Shown one piece after another: positions 26,545-37,199 of a stretch of 60,948 bases of DNA; the first letter of the stretch is position 1; each line of letters opens with the position of its first letter. Under the pieces are notes generated by a model that did not search any database, was not told where the DNA came from, and saw only the letters and a program-made list of their open reading frames with translations. Source of the stretch: Actinomycetota bacterium (GTDB taxonomy: Bacteria; Actinomycetota; Actinomycetes; S36-B12; GCA-2699445); the NCBI GenBank assembly GCA_029978705.1, contig JAPOIY010000015.1, positions 1 to 60,948 of the forward strand, written 5' to 3'. The translations under genes and the position numbers were made by a program.

Positions 26545-27996
26545 TCACCGCGATACCCGGTAGTCCCGCGCGGCCGCCCGCCGGGTCGCCCACCAGTACC
26601 GGGGGGTGCCGTAGCCCCAGTTGGTCGTGATGCGCCCGGCGGCGTCGCGGTACCAGCTGCTCTCCGCCGCCCCCCACACCGTCCGGGACAAGGCCTCACC
26701 CAACTGGGTGTTGAATCGGCGGAACGCTCCTTCCCGCACTTCGACGACGCTGCCGTGGCGGGCCCCGCGCAACAGGGTGACGATGTGGCGCGCCTGGCAC
26801 TCCAGCATGAAGATGATCGAGTTGTGGCCGAGGTTGGTGTTGGGGCCGTACATCATGAAGAAGTTGGGGAAGCCGGGAACACTCACGCCCACGTGGGCGG
26901 CAGCCCCCTGCCGCCAGACGTCATGGAGTTCGCGGCCGTCCCGGCCCACGACCCGCAGGGACGCCAGGAACTCCGTCGAGCGGAAGCCGGTGGCCAGCAC
27001 GAGGCAGTCCACCGGGACCGTGCGCCCGTCACCCAGCACCACCCCCGCCGGGTCGATCCGCGCCACCGGGCTGGTGACGAGGTCGACGTTGTCCCGCGCG
27101 AGGGCGGGGTAGTAGTCGTCGGAGGACAGCACCCGCCGGGCGCCCACCGGGAAGTCCGGGGTCAGGAGGTCCCGCTGACCGGGGTCCGGCACTGCTTCGG
27201 CCAGGTGCCGGTCCACCAGCCGCCGGGCGAGGGAGGCGAACGGGCGCCGGCCGCGCAGGGCCGGGAAGCGGGTCTCGAACGAGGTCCACAACCAGGCCCG
27301 GTAGGCCCGGCGCACCGCGGGCACGGCCAGGACCCGCTGTTCCCACCTCCGGTAGCGGCGGTCGCCGCGCGGAAGGATCCAGTTGGGGGACCGCTGGAAC
27401 ACCGACAGCCGGGCCACCCCGGGGGCCAGGGCCGGCACGATCTGCACCGCACTGGCGGCGGAACCGATGACGCCCACCCGGCGCCCGGTCAGGTCGAGGT
27501 CGGCCGGCCACTGCGACGAGTGACAGACGACTCCGGGGAAGCTCGCCAGGCCGGGGAGGTCGGGCACGGCGGGTCGGGGCAGCTGCCCGACGGCGCTGAC
27601 GACGACGTCCGCACGGATGGTGCGGCCGTCGGTCAGGGTGGCGGTCCACTCGCTCCGGTCGGACGACCACTGCAGGGACGCGACGGCGCAGCCGTACCGG
27701 ATGTGCGGCGAGACCCCGAGCCGGTCGGCGACAGCCGTGAGGTAGGACAGGATCTCGCCCTGCGGGGCGTACCGGCGCTCCCAGCCCGGCGCCGGGGCGA
27801 AGGAGTAGCTGTAGAGGTGGGATGGCACGTCGCAGGCGGCGCCCGGGTAGATGTTGTCGCGCCACGTGCCCCCGAGGGAGTCCTCCTGCTCGAGGATCGT
27901 GAAGGACCGGAGACCGGCCCGCAACAGCAGCGCCCCCAGGCCGATACCGCCGAACCCGGCGCCGATGATCAGCACCGAGGGAGGCCGGGCGGTCAT
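26545..27996 (-). CDS. Flavin-binding monooxygenase, type I Baeyer-Villiger-like
   Basis: A 483-residue FAD- and NADPH-dependent monooxygenase. It has two Rossmann motifs (GAGFGGIG, 12-19, and VGVIGSAASA, 174-183). Between them is the Baeyer-Villiger fingerprint FxGxxxHxxxW: F153, G155, H159, W163. GGTWRDNIYPGAACDVPSHLYSYSF is the usual family block after the FAD site, and the late ATGFRSTEF motif is present. Such enzymes insert oxygen beside ketones (steroids, cyclic or aryl ketones). A longer frame begins at 28158, but the ATG at 27996 follows TACTGT by 6 bases and starts the conserved sequence cleanly. The substrate is unknown. Confidence 0.88.
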   Translation of the reverse strand: MTARPPSVLIIGAGFGGIGLGALLLRAGLRSFTILEQEDSLGGTWRDNIYPGAACDVPSHLYSYSFAPAPGWERRYAPQGEILSYLTAVADRLGVSPHIRYGCAVASLQWSSDRSEWTATLTDGRTIRADVVVSAVGQLPRPAVPDLPGLASFPGVVCHSSQWPADLDLTGRRVGVIGSAASAVQIVPALAPGVARLSVFQRSPNWILPRGDRRYRRWEQRVLAVPAVRRAYRAWLWTSFETRFPALRGRRPFASLARRLVDRHLAEAVPDPGQRDLLTPDFPVGARRVLSSDDYYPALARDNVDLVTSPVARIDPAGVVLGDGRTVPVDCLVLATGFRSTEFLASLRVVGRDGRELHDVWRQGAAAHVGVSVPGFPNFFMMYGPNTNLGHNSIIFMLECQARHIVTLLRGARHGSVVEVREGAFRRFNTQLGEALSRTVWGAAESSWYRDAAGRITTNWGYGTPRYWWATRRAAARDYRVSR

Positions 27997-28002
27997 GCCG
28001 TC

Positions 28003-28008
28003 ACAGTA
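28003..28008 (-). promoter_or_regulatory. -10 hexamer TACTGT of a leaderless promoter
   Basis: On the minus strand TACTGT ends 6 bases before the monooxygenase ATG at 27996, which decides that start over longer in-frame options. Confidence 0.55.
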
Positions 28009-28039
28009 GGCGGCGGCCGGGGTGGACGCGGCCACGTAG

Positions 28040-29392
<1,353 letters not shown>

Positions 29393-29438: not shown

Positions 29439-29861
29439 ATGCAGACCGATCCCCGCAACGGTATGGAGATTCTCGGTGACGAGGAGTGCTGGGAGTTGTT
29501 GTCCGCCGAGGTCGTCGGCCGACTGGCGGTGGCCCCCGGTGGGCGTCCCGACATCTTCCCGCTGAACTATGTGGTCCGCGACGGAAAAGTCCTCTTCCGT
29601 ACCGCGGAGGGGTCGAAGCTTGCCTCGCTGGCCGTGAACCAGGCGGTGGCGTTCGAGGTGGACGGCCTGGAGACCGACCAGAACCTCGCCTGGAGCGTGG
29701 TAGTGCTCGGCACCGCGCGCGTGGTGGAGTCCGACGACGAGGCCGCGCTCCTGGAGGAGGTCCCCCTGTTCCCGTGGAACACGGCCCCCAAGTACCACTT
29801 CATCGAGATCGCGCCCACCCAGGTGACGGGACGGCGCTTCGTTGCGGAAGGGCGGCAGTGA
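29439..29861 (+). CDS. Pyridoxamine 5'-phosphate oxidase (PPOX)-fold flavin-binding protein
   Basis: A 140-residue single-domain split-barrel protein. EILGDEECWELLSAEVVGRLAV, DIFPLNYVVRDGKVLFRTAEGSK and NQAVAFEVDG follow the pattern of small PPOX-family proteins that bind FMN or F420 and include nitroimidazole-reductase-like and heme-handling members. This group is common in Actinobacteria and usually annotated only as 'pyridoxamine 5'-phosphate oxidase family'; vitamin B6 synthesis is not implied. Its stop overlaps the purD start (GTGA), so it is co-translated with a purine enzyme, but the link in function is unclear. Confidence 0.82.
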   Translation: MQTDPRNGMEILGDEECWELLSAEVVGRLAVAPGGRPDIFPLNYVVRDGKVLFRTAEGSKLASLAVNQAVAFEVDGLETDQNLAWSVVVLGTARVVESDDEAALLEEVPLFPWNTAPKYHFIEIAPTQVTGRRFVAEGRQ

Positions 29862-31143: not shown

Positions 31144-32571
31144 GTGAGTTCTTCGCGTATCGGCAATGTCCTGGCCCAGCGCTACGCCTCCGACGACATC
31201 GCCGCCCTCTGGTCCCCCGAACACAAGATCGCGCTGGAGCGGCGTCTCTGGCTGGCCGTGCTCACCGCCCAGCAGGACCTCGGAGTCCCCGTCCCGAAGG
31301 GTGTCGCTGCCGACTACGAGAAGGTCGTCGACGTCATCGACCTGGATTCGATCGCGGCCCGGGAACGGGTCACGAAGCACGACGTGAAGGCCCGCATCGA
31401 GGAGTTCAACGCCCTCGCGGGACACGAGCACGTCCACAAGGGCATGACGAGCCGCGACCTCACCGAGAACGTCGAACAGATGCAGGTGCGCGACTCGCTG
31501 CGCATCGTGCGCGGCAAGGCGGTGGCTGCGCTGGCCATGCTGGCGGACCTGGCGGCGACCTACCGGGACCTGCCGATGGCGGGTCGTTCCCACAACGTCG
31601 CCGCGCAGATGACGACCCTCGGCAAACGTTTCGCCTCGGCCGCCGACGAGTTGCTCGTGGCCGTCGAGCGCCTCGACCATCTGCTCGACCGCTACCCGTT
31701 GCGTGGCGTCAAAGGGCCGATGGGTACGGCCCAGGACATGCTCGACCTCCTCGGCGACGACCCCACCAAGCTGGCCCGGCTCGAGGAGGAGGGGGCGCGC
31801 TACCTGGGCTTCGACCGGGTTCTCGACTCGGTCGGTCAGGTGTACCCGAGGTCGCTCGACGGCGACGTGGTGAGCGCGCTGGTGCAGTTGGCTGCGGCAC
31901 CGGCCAGCCTGGCCACAACGGTGCGGTTGATGGCCGGCCACGAACTGGCGACCGAGGGGTTCCAGCCCGGGCAGGTGGGATCCTCCGCCATGCCGCACAA
32001 GATGAACGCCCGGTCGTGTGAGCGGGTCAACGGCTTCATGGTTCTGCTGCGCGGCTACAACACGATGGCCGCCGATCTGGCAGGCAGCCAGTGGAACGAG
32101 GGGGACGTCTCCTGCTCGGTGGTGCGCCGCGTGATGCTGCCCGACTCCTTCTTCACCGTCGACGGCCTGTTCGAGACGTTCCTGACCGTCCTCGGCGGCT
32201 TCGGGGCCTTCCCCGCCGTCATCGGTGAGGAACGCGACCGCTATCTGCCGTTCCTCGCCAGCACCAAGGTCCTCATGGCAGCAGTCCGCAACGGAGTCGG
32301 CCGCGAGAGCGCCCACGAGGCGATCAAAGAGAACGCGGTCGGCGTCGCGCTGGCCATGCGGGAGCAGGGTGCGCCCAACGATCTGCTCGACCGGCTCGCG
32401 AACGACCCCCGTCTGGGGCTGTCCCGCGCCGACCTGACCGCAGCCCTCGCCGAGCCGCTGTCCTTCACCGGGGCCAGTGGGGCCCAGGTGGACGCGGTGA
32501 TCGCCCGGGTCGCCGCCCTGGTGGCGACGGATCCGGCTGCGGCGGGCTACCGGCCAGGCGACATCCTCTGA
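31144..32571 (+). CDS. purB: Adenylosuccinate lyase
   Basis: A 475-residue fumarase/aspartase-superfamily enzyme acting twice in purine synthesis: SAICAR to AICAR, and adenylosuccinate to [28 protein letters not shown] and [13 protein letters not shown] are PurB blocks, and the flexible signature loop reads [17 protein letters not shown] with the catalytic Ser. The family loop normally reads PHKxNP; here the Pro after Asn is Ala, a mild deviation. The length is typical of the longer actinobacterial PurB. It is followed after 2 bp by the ASCH-purC fusion, clearly one operon. Confidence 0.94.
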
Positions 32572-32573
32572 CC

Positions 32574-33842
32574 ATGACCGCCCCGCGCCCCCTCGAACTC
32601 GCCGCCCCGGGCCCGTCCCGGGAACACCTCAACCGGCTCGTGCTGACCGGGGCCAAGGTCGCGGACCTCCGCCTTGCCAGTGATGCGCCACCCCCGCGCG
32701 TGGGCGACGACCTCACCCTCGTCGGGAACGCCGGCGAACCGGCGGCCCGGGTCCGTGTCGCTGCTGTCGACCGGGTCCGGCTGGGGGACGTGACCTGGGC
32801 GCAGGTGGAGGCCGAAGGTGAAGGCTTCGCCTCCGTCGCGGACTGGCGCCGGCAACACGAGCAGGTGTGGCGGGCTGCCGGGGAGGCACCGGGCGACACC
32901 ACCGAACTCATGTGGACCCGGTTCCACGTGGTCTCCCCCCGGCCGGTCCTCCCGCCGCGGCCGACCGCCGGCGACCTGGAACTGCCCGAGGGCTACCGCC
33001 ATGTATACGGCGGTAAGGTCCGGGACCTGTTCCGGACCCCGGACGGGGACGTGCTCGTAGTCGCCAGCGACCGAATCTCGGCCTACGACTGGGTGCTGCC
33101 GACGACGATCCCCGACAAGGGTCGTGTCCTCAACCGGATGAGTCTGTGGTGGTTCGACCGGCTGGCGGACCTGGTCCCCAATCATGTCGTCAGCACCGCC
33201 ACCCCGGGCCTGGTCGGCGATCGCGGAGTCGTGTGCCGGGAACTGGAGATGCTCCCGGTGGAATGTGTCGTGCGCGGGTACCTGACCGGATCCGGGCTGG
33301 CCGACTACCGGGCGACCGGGCAGGTCTGCGGCAACGCGCTGCCCCCCGGCCTGGATGAGGCGTCGCGCCTACCCACGTCCCTGTTCACGCCCGCGACCAA
33401 GGCCGCGGTCGGCGACCACGACGAGAACGTGGACTTCGACCGGGTCGTGGCGGAGGTGGGGCCGCAACTCGCCGCGGACCTGCGGGACACCAGCCTCGCC
33501 GTCTACGCGCGCGCCGAGGAGGTCACCCGGGCACGCGGCATCATCCTGGCGGACACCAAGTTCGAGTTCGGGAGGGATCCCGGCGGGCCCGGCATCCTCC
33601 TGGCCGACGAGGTGCTGACCCCCGACTCCTCCCGCTACTGGGCCGCCGCCGGGTGGCGCCCGGGGGCGCCCCAGCCCTCCTTCGACAAGCAGTACGTGCG
33701 CGACTGGCTGACCTCCCCCGAGTCCGGCTGGGACCGCGCGGCGGACACCCCACCACCACCGCTGCCGCCCGAGGTCGTGGCCCGCACCCGCGCCAAGTAC
33801 CTCGAGGCCTACGAACTGATCACCGGCGAGACGTTCCCCTGA
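32574..33842 (+). CDS. purC: ASCH domain - SAICAR synthetase fusion
   Basis: A 422-residue protein with two parts in one uninterrupted frame. Residues ~137-422 are a full SAICAR synthetase joining CAIR and aspartate (GGKVRDLF 146-153 as ATP-binding strand, [20 protein letters not shown] 165-184, and late DTKFEFG). Residues ~15-120 are not part of ordinary PurC (about 290 residues). They match the ASCH pattern: [21 protein letters not shown], then [24 protein letters not shown] domains bind RNA or nucleoside-like ligands. The usual Thr of the GxKxxT motif is Asp here. A Pro-rich linker ([10 protein letters not shown]) joins them. The start is ATG 2 bp after purB. An internal GTG at the VVSPRP linker could give PurC alone. 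Confidence 0.9.
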
Positions 33843-33920: not shown

Positions 33921-34172
33921 GTGGCCCGCGTTGTCGTGGACGTCATGCTGAAGCCCGAGATCCTGGATCCGCAGGGCCGCGCGGTGCAGGGGGCGCTGAC
34001 CCGGCTGGGACTCGCCGGCGTGAGCGACGTGCGGCAGGGAAAACGCTTCGAGATCACCCTCGACGGTGACCTGGACGCCGACCGCGAGACCGTGCTCAAC
34101 CGGCTGGCCGAGGAACTCCTGGCCAACCCGGTGATCGAGGATTTCACCGTCCGGGTGGCGGAGCAGGCGTGA
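33921..34172 (+). CDS. purS: Phosphoribosylformylglycinamidine synthase subunit PurS
   Basis: An 83-residue subunit that bridges PurL and PurQ in the three-part FGAM synthase of Gram-positive bacteria and archaea. [17 protein letters not shown] is the signature N-terminus, [17 protein letters not shown] follows, and [11 protein letters not shown] ends it, matching the family's usual ~80 residues. ACAGGAG precedes the GTG. Its last bases overlap the purQ start (GTGA), fitting the 1:1 need of the two subunits. The -10-like TATGAT and leader upstream suggest it begins a new transcript after purC. Confidence 0.95.
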
Positions 34173-34843
34173 CGAAGATCGGGGTCATCACCTTTCCGGG
34201 GTCGCTCGACGACGGCGACGTGCAGCGTGCCGTCCGGGTCGCGGGCGCCGAGCCCGTGCCGCTGTGGCACGCCGCGACGACGATCGGCGAGGTGGACGCG
34301 GTCGTCGTCCCGGGCGGATTCTCGTACGGCGACTACCTGCGGTGCGGCGCGATCGCCCGCTTCGCGCCGATCATGGCCGACGTCGTGCACCACGCGGGGG
34401 ACGGGCTGCCGGTGCTCGGGATCTGCAACGGCTTCCAGATCCTGTGCGAGACCCACCTCCTGCCGGGGGTCCTGACCCGCAACGAGTCTCTGCATTACGT
34501 CTGCCGCGACCAGGCGCTGACCGTCGAGCGCACGGACACCGCCTGGACGAACGAGTACGAGACGGGGGACCGGATCGTTATCCCCGTCAAACACGGCGAG
34601 GGCCGTTACGTGGCCGACGACGCGACGCTCGACTGGCTGGAGGGGGAGGGACTGGTGGTGGTGCGCTACGCGGACGGCAACCCCAACGGGTCCTTCCGGG
34701 ACATCGCGGGCATCTCCAACGAGGCGGGCAACGTCGTAGGTCTCATGCCGCACCCGGAACACGCCGTCGAGGACCTGACCGGCACGCCCGGCACCGACGG
34801 GCTGCGGTTCTTCACCTCCGCCCTGCAGTCGCTCGTCGGTTAG
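34169..34843 (+). CDS. purQ: Phosphoribosylformylglycinamidine synthase subunit PurQ (glutaminase)
   Basis: A 224-residue class I glutamine amidotransferase that supplies ammonia to PurL. The nucleophile is C86 in [10 protein letters not shown]; the catalytic His and Glu are in [12 protein letters not shown] near the C-terminus. [15 protein letters not shown] and [15 protein letters not shown] are PurQ-specific blocks. It starts at GTG overlapping purS and is followed by purL after 61 bp, a gap that contains another promoter-like hexamer. Confidence 0.95.
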
Positions 34844-34904: not shown

Positions 34905-37199
34905 ATGACGCTGGACACGGTGGCAGCTGCGCAGGCCAGCCCCGACACCGCACAGCCCTTCGCCGAACTCGGCCTCAAGGCCGACGAGTACCAGCGCATC
35001 CGCGAGATCCTGGGCCGCCGCCCGACGAGCAGCGAACTGGCCATGTACTCGGTGATGTGGAGCGAACACTGCTCCTACAAGTCCAGCAAGGTCCACCTGC
35101 GGCAGTTCGGCGAGAAGGCGCCCCCGTCCGACGCACTCCTCGTGGGCATCGGTGAGAACGCCGGCGTCGTCGACATCGGCGAGGGTTGGGCGGTCACCTT
35201 CAAGGTCGAGAGCCACAACCACCCGTCGTACGTCGAGCCGTACCAGGGTGCCGCGACCGGGGTCGGCGGCATCGTGCGCGACATCATCTCGATGGGAGCC
35301 CGACCCCTCGCGGTGATGGACCCGCTGCGGTTCGGAGCGCCCGATCACCCCGACACCAAACGGGTACTCCCCGGCGTGGTCGCCGGCATCGGGGGGTACG
35401 GCAACTGCCTGGGCCTGCCCAACATCGGCGGCGAAGTGGTCTTCGACGACTGCTACCAGGGCAACCCCCTGGTGAACGCCCTGTGCGTGGGCGCCATGAA
35501 ACACGAGGACATCCACCTCGCCAGCGCGAAGGGCGTCGGGAACAAGGTGATCCTGTACGGCGCTCGCACCGGCGGCGACGGCATCGGCGGGGTCTCGGTG
35601 CTCGCGAGCGAGACGTTCGACGAGACCGGTCCCGCCAAACGGCCCAGCGTGCAGGTGGGCGACCCCTTCATGGAGAAACTCCTCATCGAGTGCACCTTGG
35701 AGGTCCTGGGCGCCGGTCTGGTGGAGGGGATCCAGGACCTGGGCGGGGCGGGGATCTCGTGTGCCACCAGCGAGCTGGCGAGTAACGGCGACGGCGGCAT
35801 GCATGTGTGGCTGGACCGCGTCCCCCTGCGCGACGCCACCCTGAGCCCCGAAGAGATCCTGATGAGCGAGTCCCAGGAGCGGATGTGCGCTGTCGTGACG
35901 CCGGCGCATGTGGACGACTTCCTGCGCATCTGCCGCAAGTGGGACGTGGAGGCTGTCGTCATCGGTGAGGTCACCGACACCGGGAGCCTCACGATCGACT
36001 GGCACGGCGAGCAGATCGTCGCCGTACCGCCCCGCACGGTGGCTCACGAAGGGCCCGTCTACGAGCGCCCCTCCGCCCGGCCGGCCGGACTGGACGACCT
36101 GCAGGCGAATGACGCGTCGCGCCTGCCCCGGCCGGCGACGCCCGACGACTTGGCCCGGACAGTACGGGACGTCGTGGCGGCCCCGAACGTGGCGGACAAG
36201 GCGTGGATCACCGACCAGTACGACCGCTATGTCCGCGGGAACACGGTGCTGGCGCAGCCCGAGGACTCCGGCATGATCCGCGTGGACGAACGGACCGGCC
36301 GCGGGGTGGCCATCGCCACCGACTGCAACAGCCGGTTTGCAAGACTCGATCCCTACGCCGGGGCCCAGCTGGCCTTCGCCGAGGCCTACCGCAACGTCGC
36401 CACCACCGGAGCCGTCCCGCTGGCCGTGACCAACTGTCTGAACTTCGGCTCCCCCGAGGACCCCGAGGTCATGTGGCAGTTCGCCGAGGCCGTACGCGGT
36501 CTCGCGGACGCGTGCCAGCAGGCCGGGACGCCGGTCACCGGGGGAAATGTCTCCTTCTACAACTCGACCGGCGACGTGGCCATCCACCCGACGCCGGTCG
36601 TCGGGGTGCTGGGCGTCATCGAGGACGTCGCCGCCCGGACCCCCCAGGCGTGGCACACCGACGGCGAGGCGATCTACCTGCTGGGCGACACCCACGACGA
36701 ATTGTCGGGATCCGAGTGGGCACACGTCATCCACGGCCACCTGGGGGGACGCCCCCCGCGTGTGGATCTGCACCGGGAACGGGTGCTCGCGGAGGTACTC
36801 GTCGCCGGTAGCCGCGACGGGATGCTGAGCGCCGCCCACGACGTCTCCGACGGCGGTGTCGCCGTCGCACTCGTCGAGATGGCGCTGCGGGCCGATGTCG
36901 GGGCTCGACTCTGGGTGCCCGACGGGCTCGATCCGTTCGTCTTCCTGTTCAGCGAGTCGGCCGGCCGGGCCGTCGTGGTGGTGCCGCGCAGCGAGGAGCA
37001 GCGTTTCACCGCGATGTGCGCCGCCCGTGCGCTGCCTGCACAGCGGATCGGGGTGGTCGACAGCGGTCTGGGCGACGACGCCGGGAGGCCGTCCCAGCAG
37101 GTGCTCGTGCTGGCGCTGCCCGGCGGCGAGCAGATCACCTGGCCGCTGGCCGACCTGCGCGAGGCGCACGGCCGCACCCTGCCGGGGCTGTTCGGCTGA
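34905..37199 (+). CDS. purL: Phosphoribosylformylglycinamidine synthase subunit PurL
   Basis: A 764-residue small-type PurL, the ATP-dependent synthetase subunit working with PurS and Pur[17 protein letters not shown] near the N-terminus contains the catalytic His, [20 protein letters not shown] the ATP/metal block, and [16 protein letters not shown] and NVSFYNST lie in the two halves of its internally duplicated AIRS-like fold. Length and motifs are normal. The N-terminal extension before the conserved PFAELGL is short. The Rrf2-type gene starts 1 bp after the stop, so they are co-transcribed. Confidence 0.96.

Follow-up and report, generated by a model that had tools for sequence, protein, structure and literature searches.

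The purine gene cluster studied here encodes a protein in which an ASCH-derived domain is joined in frame to the N terminus of a SAICAR synthetase (PurC), and the ASCH part of this fusion is most likely a non-catalytic attachment to the enzyme, more so than a nucleoside-sensing switch. The fusion gene lies within the window, by which we mean the whole stretch of 60,948 nucleotides that was analyzed. Its frame runs from an ATG at 32574 to a TGA at 33840-33842 and contains no internal stop codon when translated, whereas the other frames beside the ASCH segment contain two to three stops. The ATG sits 2 nt past the purB stop codon (32569-32571). A preliminary description of this DNA had read the frame as passing uninterrupted through an ASCH domain and a Pro-rich linker into a complete PurC, and that reading stands: there are 422 amino acids without a stop, and both Pfam domains are significant. 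The features of the locus are as follows.

28106-29392, plus strand: purA, named by reading the sequence
29439-29861, plus strand: pyridoxamine-phosphate-oxidase-like gene within the purine gene stretch, flanked by purA and purD
between the 29439-29861 gene and purB, plus strand: purD, named by reading the sequence
31144-32571, plus strand: purB (adenylosuccinate lyase), a 475-aa ORF directly upstream of the fusion gene
32574-33842, plus strand: ASCH-PurC fusion gene, 422 aa
32628-32933, plus strand: ASCH domain, residues 19-120 (Pfam PF04266, E 1.1e-8)
32649-32672, plus strand: octapeptide G-A-K-V-A-D-L-R, residues 26-33
32814-32825, plus strand: EGEG block, residues 81-84
32940-32990, plus strand: Pro-rich linker, residues 123-139, with RPTxxDxxLPxG kept among the fusions
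33003-33746, plus strand: SAICAR synthetase (PurC) domain, residues 144-391 (Pfam PF01259)
from about 33921, plus strand: purS, named by reading the sequence
34169-34843, plus strand: purQ, named by reading the sequence
34905-37199, plus strand: purL, named by reading the sequence

As listed, a flavin monooxygenase-like gene on the minus strand (26545-28158) runs into the 5' end of purA; the gene probably begins further inside.

A fusion of the same layout lies immediately downstream of a homologous PurB gene in three genomes from a sister genus of the family (G004, G006 and G007); these fusion proteins are 55-60% identical overall to that of the window. Because the three sister-genus genomes share the same site behind purB, the fusion is real and not an assembly artifact. 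The preliminary description had left room for an assembly error and had proposed a search for other proteins with both domains; the recurrence of the fusion behind purB in independent assemblies settles both points. Of the eight genomes searched for the family, a small one of uncultured actinobacteria in or near the order Nanopelagicales, four encode the fusion. Genomes G002, G003 and G005, from three other genera of the family, have an unfused purC immediately after purB. In the remaining genome, G001, which is placed in the window's own genus, purC runs off the end of a contig. On contig L115 of this genome, purB is followed by an unrelated, repeat-rich protein gene with a signal-like start, instead of by purC.

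Among the matches listed in wider searches there were no further examples. In the order (166 genomes), none of the other PurC matches listed extends into the ASCH part, all of them starting at query residue 105 or beyond. PurC matches from 395 sampled genomes of the class likewise fell short of the ASCH part, with the exceptions of G000, G004 and G006. When 396 sampled genomes of the phylum were searched with the ASCH query, the matches that were read were stand-alone or differently joined ASCH proteins, none of them on PurC. A single scan of genome contigs gave the sister-genus loci and no others. Among the PurC matches listed from plasmids, none extends to the ASCH part, and the stand-alone ASCH proteins of plasmids are mainly from Streptomyces; viral contigs, searched for relatives that would deepen the alignments, yielded none. 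Long frames that precede purC elsewhere in the order (G048, G049, G010, G099, G123, G029 and others) contain no ASCH-like sequence and mostly correspond to purB read in another frame; a purC start codon lies nearby. A long-frame match in G074 (L026) is weak and represents an out-of-frame reading across an unrelated region. Judged by these sequence searches, the ASCH-PurC fusion is confined to one family of one order; since the genome searches were samples, rarer fusions elsewhere are possible.

The preliminary description knew of no described fusion of this kind, and we found none in a literature search that covered few subscription journals. ASCH fusions to other partners, HTH and HsdS, are known (PMC7641849). 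We also observed an ASCH domain N-terminal to a different metabolic enzyme in another actinobacterial genome (G373): the minus strand of contig L039, positions 1-2004, encodes in a single open frame an ASCH domain, a 2Fe-2S-like domain and an apparent sarcosine-oxidase alpha/aminomethyltransferase protein. There, the partner is sarcosine-oxidase-like and the ASCH domain keeps G-x-K-x-A-T, in contrast to the fusion described here, in which ASCH sits on PurC.

The C-terminal part of the fusion has an intact PurC sequence. The Pfam SAICAR_synt match has an E value of 2.6e-73, the NCBIfam equivalog PRK13961 covers residues 140-420 with an E value of 5.8e-117 and a score of 390 bits (cut-off 251), and the solved PurC proteins 3r9r and 6yvq (M. 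abscessus type) align end to end over residues 140-421 (E about 2e-103), with the conserved PurC blocks intact. On the strength of the equivalog model and the full-length alignment, the protein can be assigned to the SAICAR synthetases. It is the sole PurC found in the genome, and the conserved blocks together with the single copy indicate that the PurC part is probably a functional SAICAR synthetase. The fusion and the bacterial PurC proteins 3r9r and 6yvq share the same complete domain; what the fusion alone possesses is the additional 139 N-terminal residues formed by the ASCH domain and the linker.

Those N-terminal residues matched the Pfam ASCH model over residues 19-120 with an E value of 1.1e-7 when the whole protein was searched and 1.1e-8 for residues 1-134 (32.9 and 36.1 bits, curated cut-off 21.2), which bears out the ASCH assignment of the preliminary description. 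This is the sole ASCH domain found in the genome. The sister-genus fused copies lie under the Pfam cut-off (15 bits or no match); by profile comparison their N-terminal part is ASCH (95.6%, E 1.1e-8), and it matches the stand-alone family. Structure prediction of the N-terminal part, which the preliminary description had suggested as a check, points tentatively to ASCH: the six top PDB matches of an AF2 model of residues 1-145, built without templates, are all ASCH proteins, including 3s9x, 1t62 and YqfB (9kyf/9kyh), although the pLDDT is 61 and the matches are modest (E 2.4e-3, TM about 0.45). The model of residues 1-145 lends tentative support to the PUA-like beta-barrel fold of ASCH proteins, and it has no bearing on docking to PurC; the full-length AF2 model, with a pLDDT of 41, is too poor for domain docking. 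Positions invariant across all four fusions include T74, W75, Q77, E79, A80, E81, W91, W114, R116 and F117, with core motifs TWxQxEAE and LxWxRF, and this invariance suggests maintenance of a folded domain. The ASCH part has a net charge of -10 to -17 in three of the four fusions and of -2 in the window copy; the stand-alone relatives are likewise acidic.

The closest known proteins are the stand-alone, YhfF-like ASCH proteins of the Actinomycetota, with 3s9x and 1t62 as solved relatives. They share with the window copy the domain and the motif order GxK ... EGEG ... WRxxH ... RF at about 30-46% identity, and sequence comparison indicates that the fused ASCH domain stems from this stand-alone actinobacterial family. 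The aligned stand-alone relatives keep, or nearly keep, the Lys and Thr of G-x-K-x-[AS]-T together with an acidic EGE or EAE block and a longer loop, whereas two alignments place the fused copies without the Thr and without 5-7 loop residues. Against the shorter loop of YqfB, the window instead shows an Asp at the Thr position. Under either alignment, the nucleophile is gone from the fusions.

The ASCH octapeptide is G-x-K-x-x-[ETS]-x-R (PMC9599836). In YqfB, the N4-acetylcytidine amidohydrolase of E. coli, Lys21, Thr24 and Arg26 are essential, the Ala variants being inactive (PMC6972931). YqfB resembles the predicted fold of the fused domain by the 9kyf/9kyh match, and its profile match is weak (E 0.02). 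The preliminary description was accurate about the motifs of the window copy: Lys28 and EGEG are present, and Asp31 occupies the [ETS] position of the octapeptide. Arg33 is also kept, and WRxxH is present, so that relative to YqfB the window has the Lys and the Arg without the Thr. Because the octapeptide is not matched, we refer to an ASCH-derived domain, degenerate in the octapeptide. The octapeptide of the sister genus, G-[SD]-R-V-A-[MVI]-F-[VL], has lost both the Thr and the Arg, and with its Lys also replaced by Arg, all three residues essential in YqfB are missing. None of the four fusions has the Thr nucleophile, and only the window retains the catalytic Lys. The first Glu of EGEG (E81) is invariant in the fusions and the second (E83) occurs in the window only; the counterpart of YqfB Glu74 is ambiguous between them. 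With the Thr absent, none of the fusions has a YqfB-type Thr-Lys-Glu triad.

Selection on the ASCH part is purifying but relaxed. Between G006 and G007, omega was 0.26 for the ASCH segment (95% 0.10-0.48) and 0.036 for the first part of PurC (0.021-0.101), and across fusion pairs the dN of the ASCH part was two- to fourfold that of PurC; with most pairs close to saturation at synonymous sites, the omega ratios are rough. The fusions contain no stop or frameshift at PurC protein divergences of 18-37%. An omega and a dN that are higher than those of PurC, yet still purifying, indicate that the ASCH domain is constrained, though loosely.

One translated product is likely from the arrangement of start codons. 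The sister-genus fusion genes begin with a GTG overlapping the stop codon of purB, and an AGGAG-, GGAG- or GGGGGA-like sequence lies inside purB a few bases 5' of it; the end of purB presumably holds the ribosome-entry region for the fusion gene. In the window, neither an internal ATG (residue 113) nor a GTG (residue 119) is closely preceded by a Shine-Dalgarno-like sequence, and neither is conserved in the sister genus; we rejected both as starts for a separate PurC. Since the fusions share no conserved start codon in the stretch from the ASCH domain to PurC, a single fused product is likely, and exclusively separate production of the two parts, raised in the preliminary description, is not favored.

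The RpoB tree strongly unites the family. Neither the RpoB nor the PurC tree recovers the fusion genera as one clade, and one clade is not rejected (p-AU 0.36, RpoB). Because the fusions agree in insertion point, linker and degenerate loop, they probably trace back to a single event, with or without later loss.

The explanation that we prefer, and consider reasonably probable, is a non-catalytic accessory role of the ASCH part on the sole PurC of the cell. In this view, an ancestor shared by two genera of one Nanopelagicales family would have acquired an in-frame junction between a stand-alone, YhfF-like actinobacterial ASCH gene and the 5' end of purC, just after purB. Translation starting at the purB-purC junction would yield a single protein of about 46 kDa, in which PurC would retain its normal catalytic role as the lone SAICAR synthetase. 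The ASCH part would have lost its hydrolase residues and stayed as a folded, non-catalytic N-terminal attachment. Its likeliest role would be structural, as an aid to folding or solubility, as an oligomer contact, or as a spacer near PurC or PurB, and if it binds a ligand at all, the binding would be weak or altered. Three observations count against this explanation. The window copy keeps Lys28, Arg33, EGEG and WRxxH and may still bind something; the positions invariant in the fusions could mean a specific retained role beyond that of a mere spacer; and the trees neither group the fusion genera nor speak against such a group.

A possible but unlikely alternative is that the ASCH part works as a regulatory sensor, adjusting the activity or location of PurC when it binds, but does not cleave, a nucleotide, nucleoside or RNA. 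The domain remains in frame in both genera, is under purifying selection and has an invariant core, the window copy retains Lys28, Arg33 and EGEG, and domains of the PUA/ASCH superfamily bind nucleic acids or modified bases (PMC7641849; PMC5615036). Such a role is difficult to reconcile with the replaced Lys and the missing octapeptide Thr and Arg of the sister genus, with the fast evolution of the domain and its strong acidity in three of the four fusions (a property of the stand-alone relatives too), and with the narrow distribution. More doubtful still is the specific version in which a dead ASCH domain was recruited, in one lineage, as a ligand-sensing allosteric module that tunes SAICAR synthesis to a nucleotide, modified-nucleoside or RNA signal. 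The preliminary description had suggested that purine flux could be coupled to a nucleotide or modified-nucleoside signal. Coupling to a modified-nucleoside signal is possible but found no positive support: the Thr is lost in all fusions and the Lys has become Arg in three of four, the ASCH part evolves at two to four times the rate of PurC and occurs in a single family of one order, and an Rfam search of the window found no riboswitch or other known regulatory RNA.

It is improbable that the ASCH part is a harmless passenger of an accidental fusion, preserved since a clean deletion would have to spare the PurC start. Its faster evolution, an omega much above that of PurC, the loss of catalytic residues and the restriction to one family in which other genera have plain PurC would all fit, but an omega well below 1 and the absence of stops or frameshifts at the divergences given above would not. 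An active bifunctional enzyme, combining an ac4C-type amidohydrolase or ribonuclease with SAICAR synthetase, has precedents for its first half in YqfB and ZmASCH, which are ASCH proteins acting as enzymes (PMC6972931, PMC5615036), but is very improbable and was dismissed on the missing catalytic residues, the equivalent of Thr24 in all fusions and of Lys21 in three of four.

If the ASCH part binds a ligand, it would represent a kind of regulatory domain so far undescribed for PurC and a simple way to test the function of degenerate ASCH folds. If it binds none, the fusion would be a clean case, limited to one lineage, of an enzyme fold turning into an accessory domain. The unfused genera within the same family serve as a comparison. 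The genome of G007, a MAG, has two contigs, L074 and L075, with similar but non-identical fusion regions (84% ASCH and 95% PurC protein identity over the overlap), which come from mixed strains or a duplication.
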